Assembly: GCA_014526335.1 (NCBI GenBank) | Contig: JACTAT010000149.1 | Span: 589,614-653,613 of the forward strand | DNA length: 64,000 nucleotides | DNA from: Chrysaora quinquecirrha | Taxonomy: Eukaryota; Cnidaria; Scyphozoa; Semaeostomeae; Pelagiidae | Direction: 5' to 3' | Shown here: positions 11,715-60,360 of the stretch, one piece after another | Layout: every line of letters begins with the position of its first letter | Numbering within the stretch: position 1 is the first letter of the stretch | Notes under the pieces: generated by a model | What the model saw: only the letters and a program-made list of their open reading frames with translations | Database searches by the model: none | What the model was told of the DNA's origin: nothing | Made by a program: the position numbers and the translations under genes

Positions 11715-11946
11715 TTTGATGTCAATAAACAACACGCGAAACCAAAATAAAAGAGCCACGTGGAGGATTGTCTGAGAAAGAGGTTTTGGAATGTGAGAGA
11801 GGCTGGCAGAAAAAATCTCATGATCGCCATCGAAGTTTAATTGCTTGCCAACTTTTTTTGTTTTGTTCAAATTCCTCTGATAAAACTAAAAAATTTAGAA
11901 AAATAAGAAGGCAGATGAAGTTGGGAATGGTGTCAGGAAATGGGTA
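11715..11946. promoter_or_regulatory. Short head-to-head intergenic region, probable bidirectional promoter
   Basis: Only about 230 bp separate the chosen BBS10 start (11714, minus strand) from the first possible start of the RUN/DEF8-like gene (11947, plus strand). Both promoters and 5' UTRs must lie here or overlap the first exons. I see no clear TATA box. Function is inferred from geometry only. Confidence 0.5.
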
Positions 11947-30403
<18,457 letters not shown>

Positions 30404-34149: not shown

Positions 34150-37100
34150 ATGGCTCTGAGACATGGATTCGTGTTCCTGGTTTATTTATTTGCAACATTA
34201 AAGGTAAATCGTATTCATATTATTACAAATTATATTATTCATTCAAATTTATTTCTGTTCTTCTAAACAGGAGTAGTTTCCTTAATATCATTCGTACAAG
34301 TTTTGTAGTCCTTAAATTTTGAAAGAATACCTTGAGTGTGCTGTATATCCGACAATGTCAATTAAGAAACTTTCTGTACTGGGGGGCCAATTTTTTTACT
34401 TTCTTGTGAAAAACAAGTATAGACTATAAGTCTATAAGATTTCACTTATAAAGCCTGAAAACCGTTTCAGGTACTTTTTTCTGCGATAGGAACCTCTAAA
34501 ACCCCAATAACAGGCTAACAACCTCCTAACGACAAAAGCCCAAAATTAACACCAGAAAAGGAGTCCCTACGATAGAGCTGGATATCATTTGAAAAATATT
34601 GCCTAGTTCCTTTGTATATATTTTGTGCTCTGGGATTATTTTCTGATATATCTCTGTGTGTTCTTATTCACACGCCACGCTTTTCCGTTTACGAATGGTC
34701 TTTTCAAATCTTTCACTACAGGCCTTGTCTAAATCCAAAGCTTATGGTTTCTTATTCCAGATTAATTGATCATATTGACCCAGCATGAAGGAGCGTCGTC
34801 GTAACTTGTGGTATCATGGCCTGTTTACTGAGTTATGATAGAGAGACTGTATGGTCGCGCGATAGGCGATTTCTACAGTAGCGCCGGAACTATAGCGCAT
34901 TTAACCCAAATTCGCGTCTCTAACTGTTCTGTTGTAAATTTGAAAGATGTAATAGCCCTAGAAATTAGGATACAGTGGGGCGGGGGAGTTGTTTCACATT
35001 CAGTGGCGTAAGCCACCAGGCGCTGGGCGGTATCCCCAACTATCCTACCAGCATTTGGCTTTGCCGTTGCCTTTCTCTCCTCGGAAAACGGCTCCAGGAA
35101 AAGTGCTCTGTGGTATTTTTAACACGAAGACCACAAACTGCCGGTGAAAATTAATTTGAAATGAACTTTCCTATCAAGTTCAAAAGATGGCGCAATAGCG
35201 GATGACCTATCTCGGGACAAAGATATTTAACGTTTCTCCCCCTAATCCCCCATCTGGGGTTCACCTTTATCGCGATTTCCACGAATGGCCCTTTTTTGTG
35301 CCCTCTACTATTAGGTGCGCTTCTAGTGGCTTTCTTAGTTTCTTGTGAGGTTATGATCTCTTGCCAACCGTTTTTTTGGATTAATTTCACGAAAGTTTGA
35401 TCTCCTATGACATATGAATTGTCAAATGTGACTGACCAACTCAGCTGCAGGCTGAGTGCTCAATACATTTTGAAAAGCTCTTTGGTTTTGTTGATGCAAG
35501 ATAACCGAGAAAAAACCATTCACAGAAGATAATGTTTCAGTGCGATTGGGAAATATAGAAAGCCTGTCAATGTCACATACACCTTTTTTAATAAGCAACT
35601 GGACTTTTGGTCCAGCCCCTCAAAGTTGCTTAAAATATCTAGTATTTCAGCCCTCACAGAATGATTGGGTACCCCTTAAAAACTCTTATTTTGGCTCTTT
35701 TCTTGCTTTCCAATGTAATTGACAAGTTTGCAACGATGTATTGTACAAGGAAAGCTTTCTTAACCAACAAGTTTAGCACAATTTCAGCCCTAGTTCCTTA
35801 TTGACCCGTTTCTTATTAAATAAAAAAGTTTAGTCTTGGTTACGAGACCGTGTGCCATTTGCTAGCAGATTTGCATTAAAAAAAGTTCGTTTCGGCTTCC
35901 GCGGGCATGTTGAATTTCCAGCCTCTATGAGGGGGTTAAAAGGGTAGAGAGCGCATTAGAGAAGGGGGCTTGTTTAAAAACCCAGTATCAGATATCGGAA
36001 ATTTTTGCTATTGCATTGCACTATATGAACTTATAAGAGAGGGGGCATAAAATGAGCTTTTGTGGTAGTTCGACTATTCTTGCCCCTGGGCTTTCTGTTA
36101 TAAATTTCGACCAAGCCCAACTAGACTCTATACACTTGAGTTTTTTCGCCTTGAGAATCAGTCTTTTAACTTCACCTTTCAATCGCGTTTCTTTTATCTT
36201 TAGATAGCTCAATGTGGAGGTCGATTATCACTAAAGTTTATCAGCTTCGAAAACCCTGGACATCGTTTAAATAATGGCCGATGCTGCGATAATATGGGAC
36301 TCTGTATTGGTAATTGTGATGTTTTCCTTCGTCTTTGCATGGGATGGCGTAGTCATGGATTATGCTCTCTTCTGAATATCGAAACAGCTACTCTTGGCGA
36401 TGATTCATTCACGTTTGGCCCGTCTCTAGGCAATGGTCATTCGAATCCCATTGTATATAAATTCAGTCAATGGACGGTAAGAACTCAGTTTTATTATCTT
36501 GATTTAGCTTGAGTGTGTCTTGCTTTCTTTGCCTACTTAACAATGGTCTACTTCACACTACTCTATTTCAGTTAGCTTAACTTTACTTTCCTTGACTTTA
36601 TCTTACGTCACTTTACTTTAATTTAATTTACTTAACCTTGTCTTCCCTTACTGTGCTTACCTTAACTTAATTTACCTCACTTTTTGTTGCGCCGTCGTGC
36701 TACGTTACGTCTCTTAACTTTACTTTACCAAACTTAAATTTACTTCATTTTCCACCCTCCTTTTTCTTTTCTTCATTCAGCTTTACTTAACCCTCATTTT
36801 TCTTTACTTTACTTTGCTTAACTTAACTTTACTTAACTTTACTTAACTTTACTTAACTTTACTTTACTTTTCTTCACTTTGCTTAACTTAACTTAACTTT
36901 ACTTGACTTGACTTTACTTTTCTTCACTTTGCTTAACTTTACTTAACTTTACTTAACTTTACTTTACTTTTCTTCACTTTGCTTAACTTAACTTTACTTA
37001 ACTTTGCTTAACTTTACTTTACTTTTCTTCACTTTGCTTTACTTAACTTAACTTTACTTGACTTGACTTGACTTTTCTTCACTTTGCTTAACTTAACTTA

Positions 37101-40100
37101 ACTTGACTTGACTTGACTTGACTTTTCTTCACTTTGCTTAACTTAACTTAACTTTAGTTGACTTGACTTTACTTTTCTTTACTTTGCTTAACTTAACTTT
37201 ACTTAAATTTACTTAGCTTTACTTTACTTTTCTTCACTTTGCTTAACTTAACTTTACTTGACTTTACTTGACTTTACTTAACTTGACTTTTCTTTACTTA
37301 ACTATTTGCTTTTCGTATGCTTTTCTATTTTTTCATTTCTTTACTTTATTTACTCTACTTTTCTTTCTTTACTTTACTGTGCTTTTCTTTTCTTTACTTT
37401 ACTTTACCTTTCTTTGCTTTACTTTACTTTTCTCTTCTCTTATCTTTAATTTACTTTGCGTTACTTCAGTTTGACTGTTAAAAAGCGTGATAAGTTTAAG
37501 CACTTTTTTTTCGTTTCCAGGAGCCATTTAGATTACGAGTAACATCCCTTGATGACGACGGAGGGAGTATCGTAGGTCGTGGTGCAGATTTAATCAGTAC
37601 TAACGACTTTGACATTACGCGTGCTCCAGAAATTAATGCTGACTCAGCAGTTACTCAATCTAAAACTCTTCGTGGTTACCGCTCTGTTTTAAAACTTAAT
37701 TACAAGTGAGTAATTTTTTCTTGCAATTTCAGATCCTTAATCGTTTTTCAAAATTTGTATATGCTGATTTTTTTTCACTTCTTTTCAGGATTTATTGTGA
37801 CGCGGGCTACTTCAAGCCTTCATGTAACGAGTATTGTGAGACGACCGATGATAGCAGTGGTCATTACACATGTGACTTCGACAACAGCAGGAGAATCTGC
37901 ATGAAAAATTGGTATGGACCCTCGTGTACACATTTTTGCAGAGCTCAAAACTGCAATGTATCTGGGCACTATATATGCAGCACTAATGGCACTAAGATAT
38001 GCCTGCCTAGGTGGTATGGAGTTGTATGCAACAGATATTGCATTGCAAGGGACAATGCAACTGGGCATTATACGTGCAATAGTGAAGGCGATAAAATTTG
38101 CATGACGAACTGGTATGGGAAAGATTGCACGAAATATTGCGACATTAAAGTTACAGAGCATTTTAAATGCTTGGACAGTGGAAGGAAAGTGTGTAGAGAT
38201 GACTGGTTTGGAACGAATTGTACTCGGTACTGTAAACCGGTTCATGGACCAGAAGCAAATTACACTTGTTCCGAAAATGGAACAAAAATTTGTGGAGCGA
38301 ATTGGTTTGCAACAAACTGTACTCGGTATTGTAAACCGGTTGGTGGGCCTAAAGAAAATTACTTGTGCTCAAAGAATGGGACAAAAATTTGCAGTGAAAA
38401 TTGGTATGGCGAAAACTGCAACGTTTATTGCATTGTAAATGCCTCTACAAACTTTTCCTGTGATTCCTCTGGAAGAAAGATTTGCTATGCTGGCTGGTAT
38501 GGTATTAACTGCTCTGATTATACAGGATGCGTAGAGAATACCTCCGTCCAGAGCAGGTATTTCTGTGATAATTCAACTGGAAAGATGGTTTGCAAAGATG
38601 GCTGGACGGGGGATCAGTGTCAAATGAGGAATGGTAAGTTTTCATTGGTTGGTTTTAATTCATTGCTATTGTATTCATTGGCGCAAGCGAAAACGGTCAA
38701 AACATTTAATTTCACAAGCAAATTTAAGATGCTTGGGAAACGATGTTTGATCGTTTGGGCAGGGCCTAAACCTTTCAAGCGTAGCGTTTTCGGAGTTGTT
38801 GAATTGATCAAACGCACATCTAAGCTACTGTCGTCAGAATTTGTTCAGCCAAACGCACCCTGCACGATTTGTTTATTTTGAGTGATTGGCCAAGTGGCAT
38901 AGTCGGTGTCCGTTAGACAATTGAAGTTAAGCTTGATCATCTGAAGTCAGTATCTTGATGGGTAACTTTCTGGATGGATAACTAAACAACTCACTTCCCC
39001 GCCGTCTTTCGGAAGGGACGCTAAAGTTGGGTTCCCATGCCTGCATGCAAAGTCGGCCTTAATAAGCTGAAAAAGCTAGAAATAACAGCCTACTCAAATG
39101 AAGTTACAACAAATTTTCGTTTTTTCTGATTCTCCATATTCAGATGATAAAACCTGCTAAGAGCGTCAAATTCCTTCAAAATCGTCTTCCCTTTTGTTTT
39201 ACTCTTCTGTCTTATGTTTTGCGTTCAACTGATGTTTTAAAAATTGTTTTGCAGATTCATCTCAGACTAGCATCAACACAAGTCTAATCAAGCCAAGCAC
39301 TTCAAAACAAATTATTGAAGTGCTTTCCACTACGTCAGGCCTAAATCAAGAGGTTGTCGCATCTACCCGTACAACAACTCTGTCAGCTCCAATATCCACA
39401 CATATCATACCAAACACCAAAAAACACACTAAAACTTCTTCCGATTTACCTAAAGGACAACGCAATACCATTATAGCATCAGAGGATAGATCAAGCGTTG
39501 TCAGGCAACTTGGCTCTGTAACCATGATAGCAGCTATGGTTTCCACTAAAATGACGTCGAGGCTTTTCAAAGATGGAGTTCAAAGCGCTATTTCAGGTGG
39601 TAGCCAAGGAACTGTTAGCTCGCGTTTACATATACTGGAAAAGTCGTTAACAGCAACTTTAGTTGCCACAAAAATTCACAGACCAGCACAAAAGACTGTT
39701 TCTTCGCATACGATTTCAGAAAAACGGTCGAAATTTGTTTCATTCGCTTCCAAGATTCACAGGCACAATACATCAATTCCTGAAAACACAGAAAGAAAAG
39801 AAACTTCCAAACTTCGGATAATGGCTTACATTAGTGGACCGTTCCTACTCTGCCTGGCACTTCTGTTTACCATAGTTGGCATCAAAAAACTCCTTATGTA
39901 AGTTTCATTCGACCGTTTTTATTAAACGCTGAGGGGGTTAATTCAAAATTTTAATAATAACCAGGCGATCGTTAAATGGAGCAAATTTTAATGGACCAGC
40001 TTGTGGGATACAGCGGATTGACCAATGAATTAGTCATTCTGATTGGTATTCAACTAAACTCAAAACCAATACTACTGGTATTGTGTTTATTTCTAATACA

Positions 40101-40467
40101 GCTTCACTTTTCTGATTAGTGCGCTCCTATCCGTATTGGAGTTTTTCGGTATATTGTGCTTTTGTCAATTGTTTTGTTCTGTCTCTGACGTTTATGCTCT
40201 GAGGAGTGTCGGACGCCGTATTGCCGATGTATTCATTTGTGGAAATTAATTAAGATTCGTAGATTAATCTTTCAACTTCGTGCTGTCCTTTATTTTAGGA
40301 GAAGGTCAACAAAAGTGAAACAGATAAAATTGGAACCAGAATTATCGAGGCCTTTGATGATCGGTTCTTTACAAAGCACTAGAATACAGAGTGAAGAGTT
40401 CAACTTGTCGGCCATTATTGAAGAGCCTCGGCCTCAAGACAGCCTTTTGGGTTATCGAGACGTTTGA
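34150..40467 (+). CDS. EGF-less Notch-ligand-like membrane protein with eight tandem DSL modules
   Basis: Exons 34150-34203, 36204-36476, 37521-37705, 37789-38633, 39255-39897 and 40299-40467. They sum to 2169 nt, in frame, 722 residues. Exon 1 is a signal peptide (MALRHGFVFLVYLFATLK). Exon 2 is an MNNL domain (CGGRLSLKFISFENPGH, CCDNMGLC, GDDSFTFGPS). Exon 3 completes the C2-like fold (FRLRVTSLDDDGG). Exon 4 encodes eight consecutive DSL-like Cys modules (see 37789-38633). Exon 5 is a Ser/Thr-rich stalk ending in a transmembrane helix (GPFLLCLALLFTIVGI). Exon 6 is a cytoplasmic tail of about 55 residues ending LLGYRDV. DSL proteins such as Delta and Jagged bind Notch through MNNL/C2 and DSL. 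Here no EGF repeats follow, and the DSL count is far above the usual one. A polyadenylation signal follows at 40784. Confidence 0.88.
36500..37460. repeat. (ACTTT)/(ACTTA) pentanucleotide array in an intron
   Basis: Nearly 1 kb of ACTTTACTTAACTTTACTT-type repeat with higher-order blocks (TTTTCTTCACTTTGCTTAAC recurs every 60-80 bp). It fills the intron between the MNNL exon and the C2-like exon of DSL gene 1. Pyrimidine-rich on the coding strand. Confidence 0.92.
37789..38633 (+). other. Single exon of eight tandem DSL-like modules
   Basis: Modules of about 30-45 residues end in similar W-x-G/A-x-x-C motifs: WYGPSC, WYGVVC, WYGKDC, WFGTNC, WFATNC, WYGENC, WYGINC and WTGDQC. Most contain GHYTC, NYTC or a variant, followed by NGTKIC or SGRKIC. 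The first is the most canonical (CDAGYFKPSC...DDSSGHYTC). Units 5 and 6 are nearly identical (NCTRYCKPV), pointing to recent unequal crossing-over; unit 8 is the most diverged. All eight lie in one exon with no internal introns. Confidence 0.9.
38886..39113 (+). mobile_element. 5S rRNA-derived SINE (SINE3-like)
   Basis: Contains GAAGTTAAGC and ATCTTGATGGGTAAC, spaced like the Pol III internal control elements of 5S rRNA genes (AAGTTAAGC; CTTGGATGGGTGACC). The non-5S body reads CGCCGTCTTTCGGAAGGGAC and continues to GCCTACT and an A-rich tail. A second, better copy is at 61555-61798. Intronic, in DSL gene 1. Confidence 0.75.
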
Positions 40468-40783: not shown

Positions 40784-40789
40784 AATAAA
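40784..40789 (+). terminator. Polyadenylation signal AATAAA, DSL gene 1
   Basis: AATAAA about 317 bp after the stop codon at 40467, within AT-rich sequence. It is the first canonical hexamer clearly downstream of the gene, so it is a likely 3' processing signal. Confidence 0.5.
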
Positions 40790-44739: not shown

Positions 44740-47700
44740 ATGATGCAGTTTTCTTATGTTATTGTAACTGTTTTCCTTCTGGCTTTTATTGCAAAGGTAA
44801 GGGTATTGATTATTTGGATTTTAATTGCAGATATATTGAATCTCGTTACAGTTAAGAGCGAACCTTGAAGGGAACAACAAAAAGATCTAGTTCCTAAAAT
44901 TCCTTATTTTTCAAATCTTTTTTATTGAATGGTAGTAATTGTTTGTAGTACCAAAAGTTCCTAAATAATTCCTTGATTTTAACTGCGTATTTAGTGACTA
45001 TTATAAGGCGACGCTTGTGTTATGTGCGAGCAAAGCTGGAAACTTCTAAAGGAAACATTTGATACATGCATAACAATGAATTTACACGCTTTTTTATAAG
45101 AAACCTACCCCACGGCCTAGTTCTTAAAGTTCCTTATTTTTGGGCCTATTTTGAGGCTATTGTAGCTCCAAAAGTTCCTTAATAGTTCCTTGATTTTAAC
45201 TGCACATACAGTGGTCTTAACAATAAAAGATAGACGTTTGCATGTGAGCAAAGCTCGGGACTACTCAAAGAAACATTGGATACATGCTAACGTACAATTT
45301 ATGTGATTTTCGACTGCAAATGAATGGAACCGGCTTTCTAATTCTTGATCATTTGCAGCGATAAAAGCATTCAACATTGAAAAGTTCCTTAATGATTTTC
45401 TCTTTAGTGTATAATCACCCCATGTAATGTCTGTGCAGTACGGTGGGGATGTGCAGTACGGTGGCGGATGTTCAGTACGGTGGGGATACCATGATTGCCG
45501 TGGGGAGGCATCTTGCAGTACGGTGGGGATGTTCAGTACGGTGGGGGATACCATGATTGCCGTGGCGGATGTTCAGTACGGTGGGGGATACCATGATGAC
45601 TGTGGGGATACCATGATTGCCGTGGGGAGGCATCATGATTGCCGTGGCGGATATTCAGTACGGTGGGGGATACCATGATGACTGTGGGGATACCATGATT
45701 GCCGTGGGGAGGCATCTCGGAGTACGGTGGGGATGTTCAGTACGGTGGGGGATACCATGATTGCCGTGGCGGATATTCAGTACGGTGGGGGATACCATGA
45801 TGCCTGTGGGGATACCATGATAGCCGTGGGGAGGCATCATGATTGCCGTGGCGGATATTCAGTACGGTGGGGGATACCATGATGACTGTGGGGATACCAT
45901 GATTGCCGTGGGAGGCATCTCGGAGTACGGTGGCGGATGTTCAGTACGGTGGGGGGATACCATGATTGCCGTGGCGGATATTCAGTACGGTGGGGGGATA
46001 CCATGATGCCTGTGGGGGGATACCAAGATTGCCGTGGGGAGGCATCATGATTGCCGTGGCGGATATTCAGTACGGTGGGGGGATATCTCTGAGTACGGTG
46101 GGGATGTTCAGTACGGTGGGGTAAAATATGATCTAATCAACTAAGTCATGGTAAATCAGAGACGGGGGCTAAATATTTCTGCTTCAGCAACAATCGTCGA
46201 GCCTCTTCAAGCGATATCTTAGCTTCTCAAAGCTCAACGGGATACAAATGGGATACAAGTACTTCGTTTCGCAAATTTTGGTTGATTTCAGTACTCAAAC
46301 GTTCTTGTTTCATTTTTTTTATTACCAAATTGCTAAAGAGCTACTTTGCAGATTGACGAAAATATCAAAATTTAAAATTTCTTTTCCATAGTTTGTTAGT
46401 GTTTCTTAATAGTAAACGGATCTCATGGAATAAAGGCGAATATGTGAAAGAGATGTTTTCACTGTTTAAAAGTACAGCATTTCATGCACAATTTTGCTGT
46501 GGCAAATGCAATTTTAACGAGTATTTGCTGGCAAGCTTTTGAAAACTTTAAAACGAAACAAGATCGTGTACCTTGAGGCTTACGAAAGACGTTGTTTGAA
46601 GTGTAACGTAACCTCTCCAATTGTGGCTCCAATAACAATCACACAATTTGTCTTCTTTGAAGAGCTTTACATTGTGGGATGCGTTTATAAGTTGCAAATA
46701 CTTGTAATATTCATCTTACCAGATTTCAACTAAATACTAAATGAAACCTCCTTCGAAAACAGAGACATTTTCATAAATGTTGATGTCGCTCGTTGCAAAC
46801 TTTATCATTCAAGTTACAATGAATTGTCCAGAGTTTCAGCAATATTTTTGGGTTTTGAGTATCATTCTAATTGTGTAACAAATGGACCGCCAATTCAAGC
46901 AATACTTGCTCAATGCACCAAGTAAGGCTAGCAGTTTGAGTATTGAAATCAACCAAAATTTGCGAAACGAAGTACTTGTATCCCATTTGTATCCCGTTGA
47001 GCTTTGAGAAGCTAAGATATCGCTTGAAGAGGCTCGACGATTGTTGCTGAAGCAGAAATATTTAGCCCCCGTCTCTGATTTACCATGATTTAGTTGATTA
47101 GATCATATTTTACCCCCACCGTACTGAACATCCCCCACCGTACTCAAAGATATCCCCCCACCGTACTGAATATCCGCCACGGCAATCATGATGCCTCCCA
47201 CGGCAATCTTGGTATCCCCCACAGGCATCATGGTATCCCCCACCGTACTGAATATCCGCCACGGCAATCATGGTATCCCCCACCGTACTGAACATCCCCA
47301 CCGTACTCCGAGATGCCTCCCACGGCAATCATGGTATCCCCCACAGTCATCATGGTATCCCCCACCGTACTGAATATCCGCCACGGCAATCATGATGCCT
47401 CCCACGGCTATCATGGTATCCCCACAGGCATCATGGTATCCCCCACCGTACTGAATATCCGCCACGGCAATCATGGTATCCCCCACCGTACTGAACATCC
47501 CCACCGTACTCCAAGATGCCTCCCCACGGCAATCATGGTATCCCCACAGTCATCATGGTATCCCCCACCGTACTGAATATCCGCCACGGCAATCATGATG
47601 CCTCCCACGGCAATCATGGTATCCCCCACAGTCATCATGGTATCCCCCACCGTACTGAACATCCGCCACGGCAATCATGGTATCCCCCACCGTACTGAAC

Positions 47701-49079
47701 ATCCCCACCGTACTGCAAGATGCCTCCCACGGCAATCATGGTATCCCCACCGTACTGAACATCCGCCACCGTACTGCACATCCCCACCGTACTGCACAGA
47801 CATTACATGGGGTGCTTTTGACTGTTATCGTCGTTTATCTGGTTGGTCAATTGAGGCCAATTACCATTGCAAGCGATTCTTGGCGATCTGTTCGCGTGAT
47901 CTTTAAGGCCCACATCCACTGCGTTCGCATTTGCCGTTCGCTGTTCAGGCCGTTCCTTTGCCGTTCGCCTTTCGCTACCGATCAGCGAAAGGCGAACGTG
48001 AGGGGATTTTTGTTTTATACTGAAGGTGAACTTCAAGCTTTGGCTAAAATTCGTTGATTAATTCTGATCCTTCGCTCGGCAAATTCACTCAAAATTAAAA
48101 CTGAGCGAACTCTCCAAATTTACTCATTGAAGACCGTTTTTAAGACCGTGAAAGGTAATTTCTATTCGGCATTGAACTGCGAACAGGAAATTCGCGGAAC
48201 ACCGAATGCGAACGAAGTGGAAATGGGCCTTTAAGGTGCACAAGAATGGGGCTTTAAAGTCGATCCATTCTTTTTCGCACAGGATCTAGAATGTATAAAA
48301 ATCATTTTTTTTCCTTTTTCTGTAGGACTCCTATGGTACAGGCATCTTGTCACTCAAGCTACTGACTTACGAAAACCCATCGCACAAACTAATGAATGGA
48401 AATTGCTGTGATTCTGGTTGTCAACCTTGTGATAACTATTTTAGATTTTGCCTGTCACATGTCGCGTCTACCGACTGCTCCATTGGTTCCCTGTGGACTG
48501 ATTTAGAAGGTGGTGATTCCTTCACTTTTGGAAGCACTATATGGAGAGCAATGGATAGTTATAATTCAGTGGGAAACCCTCTGCTTTTTTCCTTCGATTC
48601 TTGGAACGTAAGTATGAGTGTCGAATTTAGTTTTCATAAGCCGTAACGATCGTACGGTTGTCGCACCACTGTATTAGACAATTTCTGCGATTAATGGAGA
48701 AAGATAGAAACGAAATCGTAGGAATCATGAAAGATGAATCCTATTCTGTCTCAACGATTCTGCAATCAGTTAGTTAGTTAGCTTATTTATTTGTTAGTTT
48801 TTTATTTATTTATTTTGTTAGTTAATTATCTTGTTAGTTAGTTGGTTTATTAGTTAGTTGTTAATTTTCTTGCAGTTGGTTTGTTAGTCAGTTAGTTTTT
48901 TTAGTTAATAACCTAGTAAGTCAGTTAGTTAGTTAATTAATTACTTCATAAATAAGTTAGTTAGTCAGTTAGTTAGTTAGTTAGTTAGTTAGTTAGCTAG
49001 TTAGTTAGGTAGTTAGTTAGTTAGTAAGTTAATTAGTTAGTTATTTAGTTAGTTAGTTAGTTAGCTAGTTAGTTATTTT

Positions 49080-49111
<32 letters not shown>

Positions 49112-49166
49112 TTTACTTAGTAAGTTAATTAGTTACTTATTTAGTTAGTTAGTTAGATAGTTTATG

Positions 49167-49222
<56 letters not shown>

Positions 49223-49355
49223 GGTTAGTTAGCTAGTTAGTTATTTAGTTAGTTAGTTAGTTAGTTAGTTTGTTAGTTAGTTAGTTAGTTACTTACTTAG
49301 TAAGTTAATTAGTTACTTATTTAGTTAGTTAGTTAGTTAGTTAGTTAGTGAGTTT

Positions 49356-49399
<44 letters not shown>

Positions 49400-49416
49400 A
49401 TTTAGTTAGTTATTTG

Positions 49417-49452
<36 letters not shown>

Positions 49453-52059
49453 TTTAGTTATTTAGTTAATTAGTTAATTGTTAGGCCTACATACCAAAAT
49501 TCCCTTGCTGTCCTGTTGTTTTGCAGCTGCTTATTTGGTTGATTACGCTTATCAATTTTAACCTATTTTCAGGGAACTTTTAATTTAAAGATTGAAGTCT
49601 ATGACGCGGATCATAGTATTGATGTAATGAATCACCCTTCAAATGACCATGTTGATACCCTGTCATTAAACGTGACGTACGAAGCAGCACTGAGTCTTGG
49701 CACTGCACAGGCGCAAAGAATCACGCTGCTTGGAAAGCCTAGAGGTCTATTATCTGGACCTAAGCTAGTTGGGGAATTGAGGTAAGACCGATAGCTAGTT
49801 GTTCCTAAAAGTTTTTGGTTCTGGCCTAGGTATTCGATATTTAGGAATGAAGTCATGAAGCTATAATGACCATTCAGTGAAAATTTTTGCAAAAATTTGC
49901 AAGTGTCTATGCCTACACCGAGCTTTATAAATTTGGTTGCTATGGCAAAAGCAACCGAGTAATCAATTTAAGTAAGCAACCGAGTTATTTTTTAATCAAT
50001 GAGAAAATTCCCAGATAACTATTTGGGAAAAGCAAGAAGCGCTAGGCATTCAGCTTTAGTTGATTATTTTTATAGCTGTATAACATAATCTTTGAAAGGA
50101 CCAACCTTACGACTTGGTCCAAATAAGGTTACCGTACCGCAAGTAGGTTCTTTGGACATCAACACCATTACCTTTTTTTCTATTGCAGTGTCTACTGCAA
50201 TACCAACTACATGCTTCCATCATGCGCAGAGTTCTGCATTGATACTGATGATTCTACCGGACATTATCACTGCAACTACACTGCTGGGAAAAAGGAATGC
50301 CTTGTTGGTTGGTATGGGTTAAACTGCAATTTAAAAGTTCCATTTTGTGAGCCAAGAAATGATTCGCTTGGACATTATCGATGTCATGAAAATGGCACAA
50401 AGCAGTGTTTGCCAGGATGGATAAAACCTGAAGAAAATTGCACTGAAGGTATAATTTACATTTATCTTTTTCTTCTTCTGCTTCGTCTTCTTCATCAAAT
50501 TCTTCTTCTACCTTTCCATCTTTCCCTTTATCTTCTTCTCCTTTTTTTTCTTGTTCTCTTCTTCCTTGATCTTCTTCTCCTTGTTATTCATCTTTTTCAT
50601 CATCATCTTCCTCCTCCATCTCCTGTTCTTCATTCTTCTTCTGAGTTCTGCTTCTTCTTCCTTTTCTATTGCGTCTTTGTCCTTTCCTTCCTTTTCTACT
50701 TCCCTTTCTTAATATTCTTTGTTAATATTTGTTAATATAATATTCTCTTTATCATTTTCTTCCTCCTCCTTCTCCTCTTCTTTCTCCAATTCTTGACTGT
50801 GCTCCTCGACCCCCTCTTCTCCTTTTTCTTATCTTCTTCTTATTATTCGACTTTGTCGTCGTTTTCCTCGACCTCCTCCCCGCCTTTTCTTTTCTTCCTC
50901 CATCTTCTTTCTTATGCTTTTCTTCTTCTTCTTCTTCTTCTTCTTCTTCTTCTTCTTCTTCTTCTTCTTCTTCTTCTTTGTCCTTCCTTTCTTTTTCTCT
51001 GTGTCTTTCTCTTCTTCTTCTCTTTGTTCTTCCTTCATCTTTGTCCCCTTATTATTCTTCTTAGTCATCATTATCTTCCTCTTCAATCTCCTTTTCACTT
51101 ATTATCGTCTTCCCCGCCTTGTTATTCATCTGCGTTGCCATCTTTCTTCCCCCTCCTTCTTCTCCTCTTTTTCTTTCACTTCTCTTCTTTTTTTGTTGTA
51201 TTCTTTGTTGATATCTCTCATCATCATTATCAACTTCATTTTCTTAGCGTTTCCTTTTCTTTCGATAGCTGTCGCGAAAACAGAGTCATCGAGTCCAACC
51301 TACAGCAGTATTGTGATCTCTAGCACTCGAAGAGCAACAATGGCGAGTATACACACACAACCATTGACTAGAAGTACCAATCTACGATTATCTCACTCAG
51401 CTACAACTACAGCTATATCTATATCTGCAGCTATATCTATGTCTGTATTGTCATTTGCAACTATATTTGCCGACCCTTCAAAGACAATTGAGTCAAAATA
51501 CTTTTCGATATCTACTGAGAGTGCAAACTCATCGCTTGCCAGCAAAAAAGCATCTTTAAAAAGTCCAGAGACATTATCAACAAACTTGGAGTATCGTATT
51601 AGCTTAACGAGGACTTCGAATCAGAAAATAATGTCGTCTTACGCTTCTGAATGGACAAAAAGGCACACTTCTATTAGCTCAACGTTCCCAGTTCGTGCAG
51701 TAAATACAAGCAACAACGATAGGCCTTTAAATGGGTTGCCAATTGTTGCAACTACTCCGTCAGGTATCGATGGTAATACTACTGCTCCGTATGCCAAAAC
51801 AGCATCAAAATTTGCATCAATATCAGCATCACTTCACACCACTACTGATACAAGTCCTGTTACTTCAAATTCGCTGTCTTCTTCAACTCAACCGTCATCT
51901 ATGTTTAGTCAATCTGTTACGCCAAGGACAAACATAAAATCTGGAAAGGGACAAGGTCGACATGAAGGTCTTCTTTGGCTAATCCTATTGGCTGTTCCAG
52001 TTATATTTTTCACTTTTGCTATTGTCTACCTGTACCAAACTAATCACCGCAAAAGGTAG
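44740..52059 (+). CDS. EGF-less Notch-ligand-like membrane protein with two DSL modules
   Basis: Exons 44740-44796, 48326-48607, 49573-49781, 50189-50448 and 51269-52059. They sum to 1599 nt, in frame, 532 residues. Exon 1 is a signal peptide (MMQFSYVIVTVFLLAFIAK); ATG at 44740 and 44743 are both possible. Exon 2 is a good MNNL domain (GILSLKLLTYENPSHK, NCCDSGC, CDNYFRFCL, DSFTFGST). Exon 3 is C2-like (FNLKIEVYDADH). Exon 4 has a canonical DSL (VYCNTNYMLPSC...GHYHC...WYGLNC) and a second module (CEPRNDSLGHYRC). Exon 5 is a Ser/Thr-rich stalk, a transmembrane helix (LLWLILLAVPVIFFTFAIVY) and a very short tail ending HRKR before TAG. A donor-like AAAAG/GTAGGA overlaps the stop, so a spliced cytoplasmic exon as in the paralogues is possible. 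Intron phases match DSL genes 1 and 3. Confidence 0.86.
45417..47813. mobile_element. 2.4-kb foldback element with GTACGGTGGGGGAT tandem arms
   Basis: The arms are inverted copies: left about 45417-46301, right about 46930-47813. The outermost sequence ACCCCATGTAATGTCTGTGC pairs with its complement ending CATTACATGGGGT. Outer arm parts are tandem units of TTCAGTACGGTGGGGGATAC and CATGATTGCCGTGG. Inner parts are non-repetitive but still pair (CAGAGACGGGGGCTAAATAT and AACGGGATACAAATGGGATA with their complements). The loop is about 630 bp. It sits in intron 1 of DSL gene 2. Repeat-derived open frames are artefacts. Structure recalls foldback/TU-type elements. Confidence 0.88.
48770..49485. repeat. 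(TTAG)n tetranucleotide array in an intron
   Basis: More than 650 bp of TTAGTTAGTTAG with interspersed TTATT, TTAAT and TTACT variants, filling the intron between the MNNL and C2-like exons of DSL gene 2. It is the same intron that carries the ACTTT array in DSL gene 1. Confidence 0.93.
50455..51230. repeat. Pyrimidine-rich (TTC)n tract in an intron
   Basis: CT-rich low-complexity DNA with a pure (TTC)n run at about 50920-50977. It fills the intron between the DSL exon and the stalk exon of DSL gene 2. It leaves Phe/Ser/Leu-rich frames open, one of which runs into the stalk exon; the acceptor CGATAG at 51268 marks the real exon start. Confidence 0.9.
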
Positions 52060-53804: not shown

Positions 53805-56800
53805 CTATAAAGCAACTGCCTTTTTTCTGATATACTCTATAGGCGGTGGCCTAAAATTGTCTTGATAGTTGAGTTTGTTGGGCCTAACCTCTGCTACATT
53901 GCTTTCAAATTTAGTCTCTAACAACCGATTGTCTTCTGCTGCTTCCAGATCATCCGGAGGGCGAGTAAGACTTGTCTGCGGTAAGGTTAGGTAGTCCGAA
54001 TCTTGCAGTTTGATTTCTGGAAGGGCTTGTTTTTGTATGACTTCTCTCATTGACTGTATTGATCTAAGAGAGTTCCTCGATGAGAATATCTGGTCTGCGT
54101 TCGCGTTCTGTGTTCTTATCTGCTTGAAAGGTTGCACTCTTCGTGATCTGATTAGAAATAAGAAAGTCATGTCAAAATACATAATAATGTGAACTGCTTT
54201 TAGGAAAGGAAAAGATGGTTTGGATCCCTTTGCACAGAAATGGGTCTGAGTGGATCCCTTCCCAAAAGGCCAGGATAAGCTTTCCGTTTATATACTTTTG
54301 GATCCGTTCCCGATCCGATCTCGATCCGTTCCCGATCCGGTCCCGATCCGTTCCCTTGCAAACACAATGAAATCGTTCTCATATCGTACTCACAATGTAC
54401 GGACTTTTTTGATCCGTCTCATCTCTCCTGTTCGTGTTCGTGTGAGCCCTTATGGCCTTTCGTCCTATGGTTGGGCTACTTAATATATTTTGGGTACTGG
54501 GCACGTGCCGCCCAATATCGGTATCGGTATCGTTTTTCATGATTTTGGTATAAACATGGGTCTTAATTTTCTGAAAATTGGTATAGATAAGGATAGTGAT
54601 TTTCGATAATCGGTACAAACTTAATGAAGAATGGTCTTATTAAACTTTCGTTTGTTTTCACTTTTCCTGGTGAAGTTTGATTCGAACTCACATGTTATAG
54701 TACATTTTAGCATATGTATATAGTAGCGTACGAGTTAATTTTTGGCATCATTTTGGGTATACAGAAGAATTTGGTATAAATATGGGTAGGCATTTTGTGT
54801 CTTGGGCGGCACGTCCTTATCCAAAACTAAGTCACGTACCCCCTCCCTGTGCCTATTGCCAACATCACCAAGCAAGAGAACACAGTCTACTTATGCTATT
54901 TTTTAGCCTCTCGCATCTCTGGCAAAATGTGCAGTCAGAAATCGTGTGCCTACTCACTTATTCTTTCTTGTAACAACCATTGTGATAGCAGCCGCTAGAA
55001 TTACCAAGACAACCAGCGCGACGAATAAACCTCCAAATCGCGTAACATCAAACGAGGCTTTCTTCTTTGACTCTTCATTTATATCTTGCAAATAAATGCT
55101 TGAGCTTGGTGTAAAACTTCCAGTTGCATGAATCATGACTGAACTCTTGGGAAATGAGTTCGTGTCTGCTACGACTTGGGCCATTTCCAATTTTGTTTTG
55201 GATGCGATTCTGTCTTTAGCAGCCCATATCGCTTTCTCCATGGAAGCTTTCGTGTCTGTAGTAACGTAGAAAACATTTCAAGATTTCGTAGAATAATAAG
55301 GAAAAATTGGTACAAAAGCGTGTCGTGACACTGAAAAACTTTTTCGTCTGACACTGCTTAGTGTATGAAACGTCAACTCTCAGAAATAGACCGAGACAAT
55401 TGACTAAGGCAGAATTTATGCCCAGAAGTGAATCGAAACGCGACAAACAGAAAAGTGAAACTGAATGGCTGGATTGGCATTGTGCTCGAACACCAATCAG
55501 CTTGAAGAATATAGCGAGATAACCAATGGAAATTAGCTACAAAGTCCAAGTGAGAAAACTAACTTTCTGTATACATACATATATGTAGGGAAATTAATGG
55601 TTCCTCTTACTTTTGTCGTGGATCTTCTTGTCAGAAACTGTCACCTCCATTTTGAAAACATCGGTAGCTTGATCCGCCATTTTGAAGAATACAAACTGAC
55701 TGGTCTTTGGTGGCCCAACACTGCTAGAAACGAAGAGAATATTTGTAGTTGACTTTTCAGAAAGAAGTCATCATTAAAGCAGTATACAATCTGTTCTCAG
55801 TAATCTAATTTCAGATCAAATCCAGGTATACAGTATAATATTTTAGTCACCTTGAGTCTGAAAAAATGCAGGGGACATCAGCGTAGAAATAGTGTTGTCG
55901 TAATGACTGGCAGATTTCATCCTCTGCTACAGAAGCTGACGAGTTTCTTCCCTGAAAAGACAAAATTTTAGAAAAGACTACTTATTATGGCCAATGAATA
56001 CGCGAAGAAAATTATTCTTCTTTACAAGCTGGTCTTTCTCTCTGTCCCTTATTGATATATCTGCTTGAATGCTTGCCCTAATGTCTGTTACTGTGTGTTT
56101 TCTTATCATTTTCAAACTCTGCCTGATTTTGTGTGCACCTCTTTCTCTCTTTTAAATCTATTGTCTGCCTGTTCAGCGTCGGTCTGCCTATCTGTATGTC
56201 TGTCGTATTTCTGTATGTCTGTCCGAGGGACATTTCACTCCTCGAAGAATCGTACGAGATTCGTATTGAAACAAAAGGATTCTTACAAAATTCTTGCAAA
56301 ACAATAGAGATTCCAACTGAGGGTGTACGAGATTCCAAGGAGTGAATTGCCCCACGTGTCTGTCCGTCTGTTTTTCCGTTTGTCTGTCTATATATTTGTC
56401 TGTCTGTCTGTTTGAGTCTGCCCGTCCTTATATCTACTGTTTTTCTCTGTCTGCCTATACATATGTCTGTTACGTATACATGTCTGTATGTCTGTCCGTT
56501 TGTCTGTCCGTCTGTCCGCCAGTGTTTCTATCTGTTTGTCTGTCTGTCCGTCTGTCTGTCTGTATTTATGTCCGTTTAATTTTCGTTTTTCTTTCCAATT
56601 TGTCTGTCTAATTCCCTAAGTCTCTCCGTTCTTATTTCTACAACTTTTTAGATTTATCAACGAAATATTTTATACCTTGCCACTGTTTCCTTTGAAGGTA
56701 ACTGTAAACCTTTGTTTAAGACCAGCTTCCATAGTAACTGTGGAAGAAACGGTAAAAGCGATTGTAGAGTGCAGCTTTTCTGTATGATGCCTCGATGCTG

Positions 56801-59800
56801 CCGTAATTGTAATTGAAGACGCTCTGTAGTCAGCAATTATCGTATGAGTGCTTCTCAACGGTTCTTGTAATGCAGTTGACAAGAGCTGTTGTACCTTGCT
56901 GCTAGATGGCTGTGGTTCCTTGCTAATGTTACTGCTTGGTTGTGGCACTTTACTGCTGTGTGTATATTGTACGTTGCTGCTACTTGGTATTGGCATTATG
57001 CTGCTGCTGCGTGCTTGTGGTATCTTGCTGCTGCTTTGTTTTGGTATAACGCTACTGCTTTGCCGATGTATTTTGCTGCTACTTTGAATTCCTGCAGACG
57101 AGACTTTTGTCGAGGTCGCTGAAGGCAGGACAATGATGCTGGTCTGTTTTCTACTCTGAGATATTTTGCTGCTCGATTCAGGCGTCTTCTGCGAGGGCGC
57201 TTGTGACGTGATTACAATCGCTGAAAAAAAAGATGACAAATTTTCAGACGTTTTTGTGAGACAGTTCGTTGCTGATTCGCATACTGATGTATTGCAACCT
57301 CAATTTATCGGAAACTTGTGGGACAATGCAATTGTCCGTTGTAGAGAGGTGTGCGTTATATGGAGGTTTGCTTTACAAAGGAGTGACCTTTAGGAGCAAG
57401 AATATTTGCCCGCGGTTTCCGTTCGTTGTATGGGGGTATGTATGGGAATGTATGTCAGCGACGGACGAAATTCGTCAGGGCCTAGCCAAACAAGCGAAAC
57501 AAGACAACATTGCTTATATAACAGATTTTCGCACTATCGGCATACCAAAATAGATGGAATTTGAACCTAGACTGCATGACCAGAGAACCTTCCACTGAGC
57601 TATAGAGCTCAATGAAATCGCTGATTAACTCTCCAAGTAATTCTGCTTATTGCTCTCCTCCCGTTGATTTTTGTTTGTTTGGGCTATGTTGAGCCTTCTT
57701 CAGCACGTTACATATATGTAGTAGTTGCTTACAATGTTTCGCTGAGTCCTCAAATTTTTGAAGGTTTATTTTATGTGATCCAAAAGCCGGTTGCTGATCA
57801 AAATTTTTCTCACCACAAAGAGTGTAGCCTAACCCAAGACAGCCAAATGCAAAAAGTATCTCGATTCAGTACTTTTTCGGAACTCACCTTTTGTACAATC
57901 GCTTGAAACATCCGTCCATCCTTGCAAACAAATCTTCTCGCCTGTTGATGGGTCGCATGAATAATGTCCTAGGTCATCATCCCTTGGGACGCATGTCAGC
58001 TTCCGTTGTAGGCATCGGTCGCCATACCAACCAGGTAAACAATCTCTTGTGCCATTTTTGAAATTGCATGTGTAATGTCCGGTATCGTCGTCTTTATCAA
58101 CACAATAGTCAGTGCAATGAGGGATTAGATAGCGATTGTTACATGTCACACTAAAAGGAAAAGGAAATATTGTACGGCGTTCAAGAAATGGTTCGACTAG
58201 CAAGGGATAGACTGAAATAGATAAGATAGCTCAACACAGAAACGGCCTGTGTGTCGGAGTGCACTATGCCTTAAGGCGAGCGCAAACCGTGCCAACTGTG
58301 TTGGCCAACGTGTTGGCTGAGAATTGGCCAACATTTTAGTACGGTTTTTCATACCATCACCATATCTGAGGGGACTCCGAACTAACAACCGAAATTGAAC
58401 ATGTTGTGCCAAACCGTACCAGCACATTAATTTTGATCAAATCGATTAAAATGTTGGCCAACAATTTTTCTTCAAGAACATGTTATTTATAACAAACCGT
58501 GCCATAATGTTGGCCAACAATTGTTGGCGGCGACGGCGATGTTGTGCAACATGTTGGCACAGTTTGCCCCGGGCTTTGGGAAGGAGATACTATCTACTCT
58601 CAAGGTACACATAAAAATAAAACGACCCGAAACCAGCTTTGTCCCCAAATTGGCCATTATTGACCCTATCCTTCCTTAAAATTCCTTAAATTTTAGGAAC
58701 ATGCTGTATTATAACTGATTTATTGTCAGTGTTCGACTACATCTCTTAATTGTTCCTGAGGCCAAAAAAGGTCGCTCCTAAATCGTCCCGAAATTGTGTC
58801 GAAATGTTATATTCCTTTTAGACATTACATTTCTACCTAAGACGTGGAAAGAGAAATGATTCGGGGAATGGGTCAAATGGAACATTTTTTTCATTTTTCA
58901 TTTTAAAATTATTTATACACAAAAATCCCTTCAGCATACAAAAGTCTAAGTTAATTAAAGATCCTAAATACAACCTGTGCCAGGGTGTATTTAGGTTTGA
59001 TTCTCCCTGGTTTTATTCTCCCTAATGGAATTGACCAGAATTTGTTTCGGGCCTGCGCCCCGTGCTTTAGAAACCTACCCGTTTTTTATACTAATTTTGC
59101 CAAGTACTAGTAGAACCGTATATCCCACCTTATCTCCATGGTAATCTTTGGAAAAACACCAGCTCGAGGCTGTCCAAGAAGAAGCAGCCTCTTTTTGACA
59201 ACATGTGCTTCGCTGTATGCAGGAACAGTAAGATTCTTCCCCATTTCTGTCACGAAGTCAGCCGTTCCTCCGTTGTCAGCATCGAAAACACTTACCTTCA
59301 ATGAAAGAACTTCCTAAAAAAAGGATGGCTTTGTTAGACAAAGTTTTGGTCAACTTCCTGACAAAATATCGAAGCGCAAAGACCCTTCCATGCTATCCTA
59401 TTTCACCTTAAAGTGCTAAGAAGTCCTTTTCGAGCCAAAATTCTTGCTTGCCTCGTCTCCCCAGGCCCATCCGTCGAATGTATCATGACATCTGAAGATG
59501 GTGATCGTTAAGGGTCATCGAAATATAACGAGTCAAAAGCGGATAGTTATTATTAGAGGCTGCAAAATGGGATACGTCAATCCGGCAACAGTTTTTGACC
59601 TATTCCATATCCCATCGCCCTTATGTTTTCCAATTTCGATTCGTCCGTCCACTTGCCATACCGTATCCCCCGAAAAAGAGCCTTGTATCTCGCATCCCGT
59701 CAAGCAAGATAGGCTTATCTTGTGACCCCGCCAAATTTACTGTTGACGCTCGTATTAGGCCCAATACGATATTGTATTGGCTCTTTAGGTCCGGTATTAA

Positions 59801-60360
59801 TCTAACATGGTACACATAGGTGCAATTTTACCAATTGCCAGGATTGCATTTTAGAATATTAAAAAACGTCAATTTGGCTAACATTAATCAGAAAAATTTT
59901 CTGAGGTATAAAAACGTTTCGCCGGCCTCTTTCACTTTAACACTGTTTTGAAACAAACAAATTTATCAAATAGCAAACGTGAAAGTGGGGAAGAATAACA
60001 TGATTGAAAATATAGCTAATAGAAAATAACATATAGAAACAACGAAAATCAAAACGCACTCACTTGCCATCGGTAGAATAAGAACTTCAATGGATTTGAC
60101 ATCTCATCACCACTTGCGGTATAAAACACAGAATCAAAAACAAAATAATTACTGAAGCCCAGCTCTTCAGTCCGTATTTTCTTTATTGAGCACGGACCAC
60201 CAGACGGACCAGAGATACAGATAATGAAGTAGTATTCGCAGCCATTACACGTGTTTGTTCCCGTATTTAGACCATCACAGCAAGCACCATTCGGCAACCT
60301 TCCTTGCTGGTTTTCAAAGTGGAGCAGTTTGATGGATAATTTTCCAAAACATGAAGCAAA
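53805..60360 (-). CDS. EGF-less Notch-ligand-like membrane protein, third paralogue (signal exon not found)
   Basis: Minus-strand exons in order: 60360-60064, 59313-59129, 58150-57888, 57220-56676, 55951-55851, 55723-55611, 55255-54958 and 54147-53805. They sum to 2145 nt, in frame, 714 residues without the signal peptide. Exon 1 is MNNL-like (LSIKLLHFENQQGRLPNGACC). Exon 2 is C2-like (LSLKVSVFDADNGGTADF). Exon 3 has two DSL modules (CNNRYLIPHC...GHYTC...WYGDRC; CVPRDDDLGHYSC). Exon 4 is a Ser/Pro/Lys-rich stalk with repeated SSSKI(P/H) motifs. Exons 5-6 add a membrane-proximal segment of unknown fold absent from its paralogues. Exon 7 has the transmembrane helix (FVALVVLVILAAAITMVV). Exon 8 is a tail of about 114 residues. 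The donor AATAA/GTGAGT overlaps an in-frame TGA, so splicing decides whether the long tail is made. Confidence 0.85.
54298..54358. repeat. GATCCGTTCCC minisatellite
   Basis: Five or so units of GATCCGTTCCC with variants (GATCCGATCTC, GATCCGGTCCC), in the last intron of DSL gene 3. Confidence 0.75.
54503..54813. mobile_element. MITE with ACGTGCCGCCCAA ends
   Basis: The left end ACGTGCCGCCCAA pairs exactly with the right end TTGGGCGGCACGT. 311 bp with no coding capacity. It sits in the intron between the transmembrane exon and the tail exon of DSL gene 3. Confidence 0.78.
56030..56660. repeat. (TCTG)n-rich low-complexity tract in an intron
   Basis: TGTCTGTCTGTCCGTCTGTC-type repeat, densest at about 56340-56620. 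It lies in the intron of DSL gene 3 between the stalk exon (56676-57220) and the next exon (55851-55951). Cys-rich open frames across it are artefacts. Confidence 0.9.
57548..57712 (-). mobile_element. tRNA-derived SINE, copy in DSL gene 3
   Basis: Complement of the family described at 22791: AATGAAATCGCTGATTAACT, TTCTTCAGCAC and GCATGACCAGAGAACC are recognisable. The A box region is diverged, so it is an older copy. Confidence 0.72.
58271..58577. mobile_element. MITE with GCAAACCGTGCCAAC ends
   Basis: The left end GCGCAAACCGTGCCAAC pairs with the right end GTTGGCACAGTTTGCCCC. TTGGCCAACA motifs repeat in the interior (GTGTTGGCCAACGTGTTGGC). About 300 bp, in the intron between the C2-like and DSL exons of DSL gene 3. 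Confidence 0.75.

Follow-up and report, generated by a model that had tools for sequence, protein, structure and literature searches.

The window, that is, the whole 64,000-nucleotide stretch of Chrysaora quinquecirrha DNA analyzed here, contains a gene (gene A) whose fourth exon (37789-38633, + strand) encodes eight tandem DSL units chained by shared loops. The frame of this exon is uninterrupted, with canonical splice sites at both exact ends, and its 281-residue product matches the Pfam DSL family (PF01414) with 189.7 bits (E = 8.1e-57) in eight passing stretches, a match for which chance is no concern. The initial annotation had described eight tandem DSL-like modules with WYGxxC-type ends in one intronless exon, and the description largely holds: the eight stretches lie within one open frame and eight W-x-[G/A]-x-x-C ends can be counted (WYG five times; WFG, WFA and WTG once each).

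Unit 1, with its own four-cysteine part at 37823-37924 and its first loop at 37796-37825, scores 40.0 bits against the DSL profile, and is followed on the + strand by unit 2 with an extra cysteine (37925-38026, 45.2 bits), unit 3 (38027-38125, 52.7 bits), unit 4 (38126-38218, 39.0 bits), unit 5 (38219-38317, 37.6 bits), unit 6 (38318-38416, 37.2 bits), unit 7 (38417-38509, 42.4 bits) and unit 8, which includes the closing cysteine (38510-38620, 30.6 bits). When scored singly, with each piece taking in the 10-residue loop that it has in common with its neighbor, all eight thus exceed the curated cut-off of 24.2 bits (range 30.6-52.7 bits), and each matches positions 1-43 of the 46 in the profile. 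Units 2-8 are therefore DSL units and not truncated EGF or laminin-EGF modules. The latter identity is rejected, as none of the EGF and laminin-EGF models reaches its own cut-off on any of units 1-8 scored unit by unit, the nearest being unit 8 (EGF_2 18.4 against a cut-off of 22.1; laminin EGF 17.2 against 21). A teneurin-EGF identity is likewise rejected, with the whole exon scoring 49.3, under the cut-off of 65.

Cysteine pattern and predicted structure

Neighboring DSL matches in exon 4 overlap by ten residues, such that the C5-x8-C6 segment of one unit is the C1-x8-C2 segment of the next, and the true repeat period is 31-36 residues (~33) with four cysteines. Because neighboring units have one loop in common, 34 of the 35 cysteines fit a 2 + 8 x 4 arrangement, and the extra one is residue 55 of the exon, in unit 2. 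The spacing in units 1-7 is C-x8-C-x3-C-x(9-12)-C-x(7-8)-C-x8-C, with the additional cysteine in unit 2, and unit 8 has x5 between C2 and C3. According to a review (PMC3415683), DSL disulfides link consecutive cysteines, and the C1-C2 loop of the domain superimposes on its C5-C6 loop; this internal likeness makes the overlap structurally natural and allows units to be chained without linkers. Pairing of this kind along the array would give 17 bonds and leave residue 55 free.

The predicted structure of the exon 4 product is a repeating beta-rich array, in which residues 71-118 (unit 3) superpose on the DSL domain of Drosophila Delta with 0.6 A over 48 residues, and by this model the exon 4 units have the DSL fold. 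The initial annotation had also asked whether the modules stack like a rod, and a rod is borne out in part: the model repeats regularly and unit 3 fits the Delta domain, but the pTM of 0.45 means that the local fold is confident while the overall shape of the array is not fixed.

Gene models and their surroundings in the window

Six exons of gene A join in frame to encode 722 residues, modelled in the order signal peptide, MNNL/C2 domain, eight DSL units, Ser/Thr-rich stalk, membrane helix and short tail, all on the + strand. Exon 1 (34150-34203, modelled) provides the start codon and the putative signal peptide, with an ATG, the hydrophobic stretch MALRHGFVFLVYLFATLK, a gtaaat donor and a frame that joins exon 2. 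The first and second parts of the MNNL/C2 domain are encoded by exons 2 (36204-36476) and 3 (37521-37705), as supported by splice sites, frame and the PF07657 match, which reaches 59.5 bits on exons 1-3 against a cut-off of 22.5; furthermore, residues 24-217 can be aligned with the solved structures of Jagged1 and Delta. Downstream of the DSL exon, exon 5 (39255-39897; frame and splice sites) carries the stalk and the membrane helix, and exon 6 (40299-40467; frame) encodes the cytoplasmic tail to the stop codon, in which 14 of 38 aligned positions agree with those of a relative, P0004. An AATAAA motif lies 3' of the gene at 40784-40789. The signal peptide and the membrane helix were judged by eye, and a C-terminal helix is predicted in another relative, P0003. 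Exon 5 matches no Pfam family above its own cut-off, and within exon 4, the stalk and the tail there is neither an EGF family at cut-off nor a Pfam match to the von Willebrand C domain.

The window has three MNNL-DSL genes, namely gene A, gene B on the + strand and gene C on the - strand, the latter two each with two DSL units in one exon. In gene B, two MNNL exons (48326-48607 and 49573-49781; splice sites, PF07657 63.1 bits for the gene) precede the DSL exon (50189-50448; PF01414 71.8 bits in two stretches) and a modelled stalk with membrane helix (51269-52056; open frame, acceptor), whereas its first exon and tail were not found. Gene C comprises two modelled MNNL exons (60064-60360 and 59129-59313; frame and splice sites, with a joint PF07657 score of 51.6 bits), the DSL exon (57888-58150; PF01414 74.4 bits in two stretches), and a stalk, membrane helix and tail in five modelled exons, each translated singly (53805-57220). 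When all six frames of the window were searched with a family unit profile, which was built including the units of genes A, B and C and hence tests for further units rather than for theirs, DSL units were detected only in the ORFs of these three genes. A widened C2-C3 spacing, as in unit 8 of gene A, is present in the second unit of both gene B and gene C, which suggests an older pair of first and last units between which further units would have been inserted later.

Long microsatellites with TTTAC and AGTT units occupy the introns between the two MNNL exons in gene A (36576-37466) and gene B (48768-49484). Just 5' of gene B, at 45432-47798, minisatellite arrays of the GGTGGGGATACCATGATTGCC type form a large inverted repeat, with arms that are fully complementary at 45625-45830/47401-47606 and 99% complementary at 46118-46300/46934-47116; this arrangement looks like a mobile or palindromic element. 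Elsewhere in the window, arrays of a ~160-bp satellite are present at 20988-21960 and 23074-24307, with consensus units that by eye look like mutual reverse complements, and an open frame of 827 codons (18304-20787, + strand) has no Pfam match at E up to 1. An intronless chaperonin-like ORF of 618 residues lies at 10029-11885 on the - strand (PF00118, 174.1 bits). Its best match is EukProt gene18739, one of two proteins at E up to 1e-30 among the 7994 candidates scored, namely those sharing most words with the ORF. This protein belongs to the naming series of the gene A relatives P0003 and P0004 (gene18737 and gene18738) and is numbered next to them, and the consecutive numbers suggest a possibly conserved neighborhood.

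Doubt about such genes is not new, as Gazave et al. 2009 (PMC2770060) were unsure whether multi-DSL genes are real or misassembled. An artefact of assembly or gene modelling, or a pseudogene in decay, would be in keeping with the microsatellite arrays in the introns and the minisatellites around the genes, but this explanation is largely refuted and now extremely unlikely for gene A: the frame is open and all splice sites are present, the gene numbers of P0003 and P0004 adjoin that of the best match of the chaperonin ORF, and units 5 and 6 differ at 25 of 99 bases with a dN/dS of ~0.2, and are therefore not one stretch assembled twice. The intact six-exon model, the two paralogs and the occurrence of relatives in one stony coral, one soft coral and other records argue that multi-DSL genes are real and old within Cnidaria.

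Relatives and the growth of the array

The protein collection yielded 8 proteins in one search and 15 in another, with all of the 8 among the 15. In the eight relatives scanned with Pfam, the number of DSL stretches is 15 in P0002, 10 in P0005, 9 in P0006, 7 in P0007, 6 in both P0010 and P0011, 4 in P0003 and 2 in P0004, and MNNL is called in two of the eight, P0003 and P0004, so that a C2 head is established for these two only. The named relatives with a DSL array are cnidarian, namely the stony coral Oculina patagonica (P0002) and the soft coral Dendronephthya gigantea (P0006, annotated as 'jagged-1b-like'); P0005, a EukProt record, we take to be probably from Aurelia, going by its Seg/GoldUCD label. 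Like gene A, these three proteins have an N-terminal region aligned with MNNL and, after the DSL array, a stretch close to the C terminus that by eye is hydrophobic, but they differ from it in having 15, 10 and 9 DSL stretches, respectively, and no Pfam MNNL call, and are 32-38% identical to it. P0002, with a DSL score of 375.1, also exceeds the Pfam teneurin-EGF cut-off (78.5 against 65). P0003 and P0004 resemble gene A in combining MNNL, a DSL array and a putative membrane helix, and P0004 also has the tail in common with it. P0003 is 53% identical over 51% of gene A, but has five complete units by pattern (four Pfam stretches), with one unit in place of units 5 and 6. A single DSL unit by pattern is found in P0012 and in P0013, a fish Delta. 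In P0008, P0009, P0014, P0015 and P0016, DSL-like units lie amid other cysteine-rich stretches, with laminin-EGF in P0008, P0009 and P0016, and these proteins possibly represent another multi-DSL architecture.

The initial annotation knew of no described ligand with this count of DSL modules, a claim that does not stand, as cnidarian genes with 1-11 DSL repeats, and one with MNLL and three DSL, were already reported by Gazave et al. 2009 (PMC2770060). Compared by description rather than by sequence, gene A belongs with these multi-DSL genes, having several DSL domains and no other ectodomain module named. They have tandem DSL, with MNLL in one case, and are described as consisting of DSL domains only, whereas gene A adds a whole model with signal peptide, MNNL, stalk, membrane helix and tail. 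Canonical Delta and Jagged/Serrate likewise have a C2 (MNNL) domain, DSL and the type I membrane topology modelled for gene A; unlike gene A, they have one DSL followed by EGF repeats, the contact Phe is present in Jagged1, and the von Willebrand C domain of Jagged/Serrate was not found in gene A. More than one DSL (two) is also found in a Capsaspora receptor kinase, which differs in its tandem EGF repeats and kinase (PMC4810162). A Hydra gland-cell gene is, like gene A, cnidarian with DSL, and has a signal peptide such as is modelled for gene A, but has one DSL in 332 residues and is likened to a soluble ligand, with no EGF mentioned (PMC3180645). In addition, genes with more than one DSL domain are mentioned in the methods of a 2021 survey (PMC8166818). 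No dedicated paper on multi-DSL ligands was found in the literature after 2009, in a search restricted largely to open-access papers without their supplements. The multi-DSL kind is thus already known but hardly studied, and what is new here is the whole gene model, the loop sharing, the missing contact Phe, the paralogs and the relatives.

Units 5 and 6, which had been called nearly identical, are indeed the closest pair in exon 4, but are only 70% identical (23 of 33 residues; 74 of 99 bases), with a dN of ~0.20 and a dS of ~0.97, both rough over 33 codons. Tandem Repeats Finder lists the pair as a 99-bp repeat with 1.9 copies. Across the 28 unit pairs of gene A, dS has no value in 19 (saturated), and falls below 1 only for units 5/6 (0.97) and units 7/8 (0.72). 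The latter have 11 of 31 residues in common and a dN of 0.56, yet a lower dS than units 5/6 despite far lower identity; over 31-33 codons, dS is therefore an unreliable clock, and dating of unit gain by dS was rejected because of saturation and this anomaly.

The best match of a unit lies within its own protein for 8 of 10 units in P0005, 8 of 14 in P0002, where extraction by pattern misses some units (14 against 15 by Pfam), 5 of 9 in P0006, 3 of 8 in gene A and 2 of 5 in P0011, and for none in genes B and C, P0003, P0007 and P0010. This unevenness indicates that lineage-specific gain of units is visible in some relatives and not in all. Two units of Dendronephthya P0006 are 90% identical. 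The proposed expansion by unequal crossing-over is therefore plausible as far as tandem duplication is concerned, considering the 99-bp pair of units 5/6, the P0006 pair and the 8 of 10 units in P0005, although crossing-over and slippage are not distinguishable. When gene A is compared with P0003, conservation is highest in unit 1 (25 of 34 residues), against 20/34, 16/33, 12/29, 20/33 and 10/27 in units 2-6, and units 7 and 8 have little counterpart in P0003.

A tree of units was built from 69 units of 11 proteins over 36 columns (P0008, P0012, P0013 and P0014 were dropped, and P0009, P0015 and P0016 were not extracted). In this tree 41 of the 65 inner branches are open and six are starred, with the bootstrap not settled. 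The starred branches unite unit 1 of gene A with unit 1 of P0003 and P0004 (99/95), unit 1 of gene B with unit 1 of gene C (98/86), units 6 and 7 of P0006 (96/96), unit 4 of gene A with unit 4 of P0003 and units 3 and 4 of P0011 (96/89), units 1 and 2 of P0006 with unit 1 of P0011 (98/88), and five units of P0005 (99/82). The tree is compatible with a split of units 5 and 6 either before or after the separation from P0003 (84/15).

Contact residues and possible roles in Notch signaling

The Notch face of Jagged1 consists of F199, R201, R203 and F207 (PMC3415683), and the F207A mutation abolishes binding to Notch1 (PMC3888931). The equivalent of Phe207 is absent in all eight units of gene A (S, S, T, T, E, K, S and Q in units 1-8) as well as in the four units that genes B and C have together, and the position is aromatic in 2 of the 69 units from 11 proteins. 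At the F199 position seven of the eight gene A units have Tyr or Phe, the equivalents of R201 and R203 are basic in three and two of the eight, respectively, and GHY is kept in units 1-3 only. The lack of the contact Phe in all eight units makes it doubtful that the protein activates strongly in the canonical manner. The bilaterian contact residues are missing from the Deltas of Amphimedon, too, which their authors treat as Notch ligands (PMC3482393), and missing sites are therefore compatible with a Notch role. The first three EGF repeats of canonical ligands are said to be necessary for receptor binding (PMC4810162).

The reading that we prefer, and to which we would give an even chance judging from the sequence, is that gene A encodes a Notch-ligand-like surface protein with a head on a DSL rod. 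The C2 domain and unit 1 would make up a head far from the membrane, which would contact a partner on the adjacent cell in the manner of C2-DSL in Delta and Jagged, while units 2-8 would replace the EGF repeats as a disulfide-pinned rod in which successive units have one small loop in common. The length of the chain would be set by tandem gain and loss of units, and the stalk would raise the rod off the membrane. Based on domain homology only, the partner would most likely be a Notch-family EGF array, and with the Jagged1-type contact Phe missing, a weak, modulating or cis-acting ligand would be likelier than a strong activator. The points against this reading are the missing Phe, the mostly non-basic R201 and R203 positions, the absence of EGF repeats, the Pfam call of MNNL in just two of the eight relatives scanned and the pTM of 0.45.

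In known complexes (4xlw, 5uk5), the C2 domain and the DSL domain contact the receptor together, and only unit 1 of gene A adjoins the C2 domain. This counts against the suggestion in the initial annotation of a multivalent ligand, in which several or all eight units would each bind a receptor and thereby cluster Notch, and which we consider distinctly improbable. The DSL signature kept in 8/8 units and the regular repetition of the predicted array would suit such a ligand, but the residues of the Notch face differ between units, with the Phe absent in all and GHY in units 1-3 only, and in the comparison of gene A with P0003 conservation is lower in units 2-6 than in unit 1.

The exon 4 product contains 13 N-glycosylation sequons in 281 residues (window 37790-38632) compared to 3.9 in shuffles that ignore the common descent of the units, and none of the 2000 shuffles reaches 13; an excess is also found in P0002 (19 against 4.8), P0006 and P0011. 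Together with the loss of the contact Phe across the family, the variable number of units among relatives and the short tail, these sequons might point to a surface adhesion or recognition protein that is no longer in Notch signaling, with the DSL array as a changeable glycosylated scaffold. We consider this rather unlikely, since P0007 and P0010 show no such excess of sequons and P0005 has a weak one (its count is reached by 111 of 2000 shuffles), the shuffles disregard the kinship of units, the order of MNNL and then DSL is conserved in genes A, B and C as well as in P0003 and P0004, and Deltas without contact residues are still treated as Notch ligands in Amphimedon (PMC3482393).

A broader proposal, which is possible but doubtful, is that multi-DSL proteins form a third class of Notch-ligand-like receptors or modulators in cnidarians, one that does without EGF repeats. 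Their ectodomain would be a shared-loop DSL solenoid with a two-disulfide unit of ~33 residues as its repeat block, and the single DSL of animals would be the shortest array, consisting of one block and a closing loop, which, if true, would account for the internal likeness of the C1-C2 and C5-C6 loops. Without the contact Phe, members of this class may modulate or inhibit Notch, or have another EGF-array protein as their partner.

To conclude, shared loops provide a simple structural rule by which the DSL domain can be multiplied without linkers, and gene A offers a natural test of how far the action of Notch ligands needs EGF repeats and the contact Phe.
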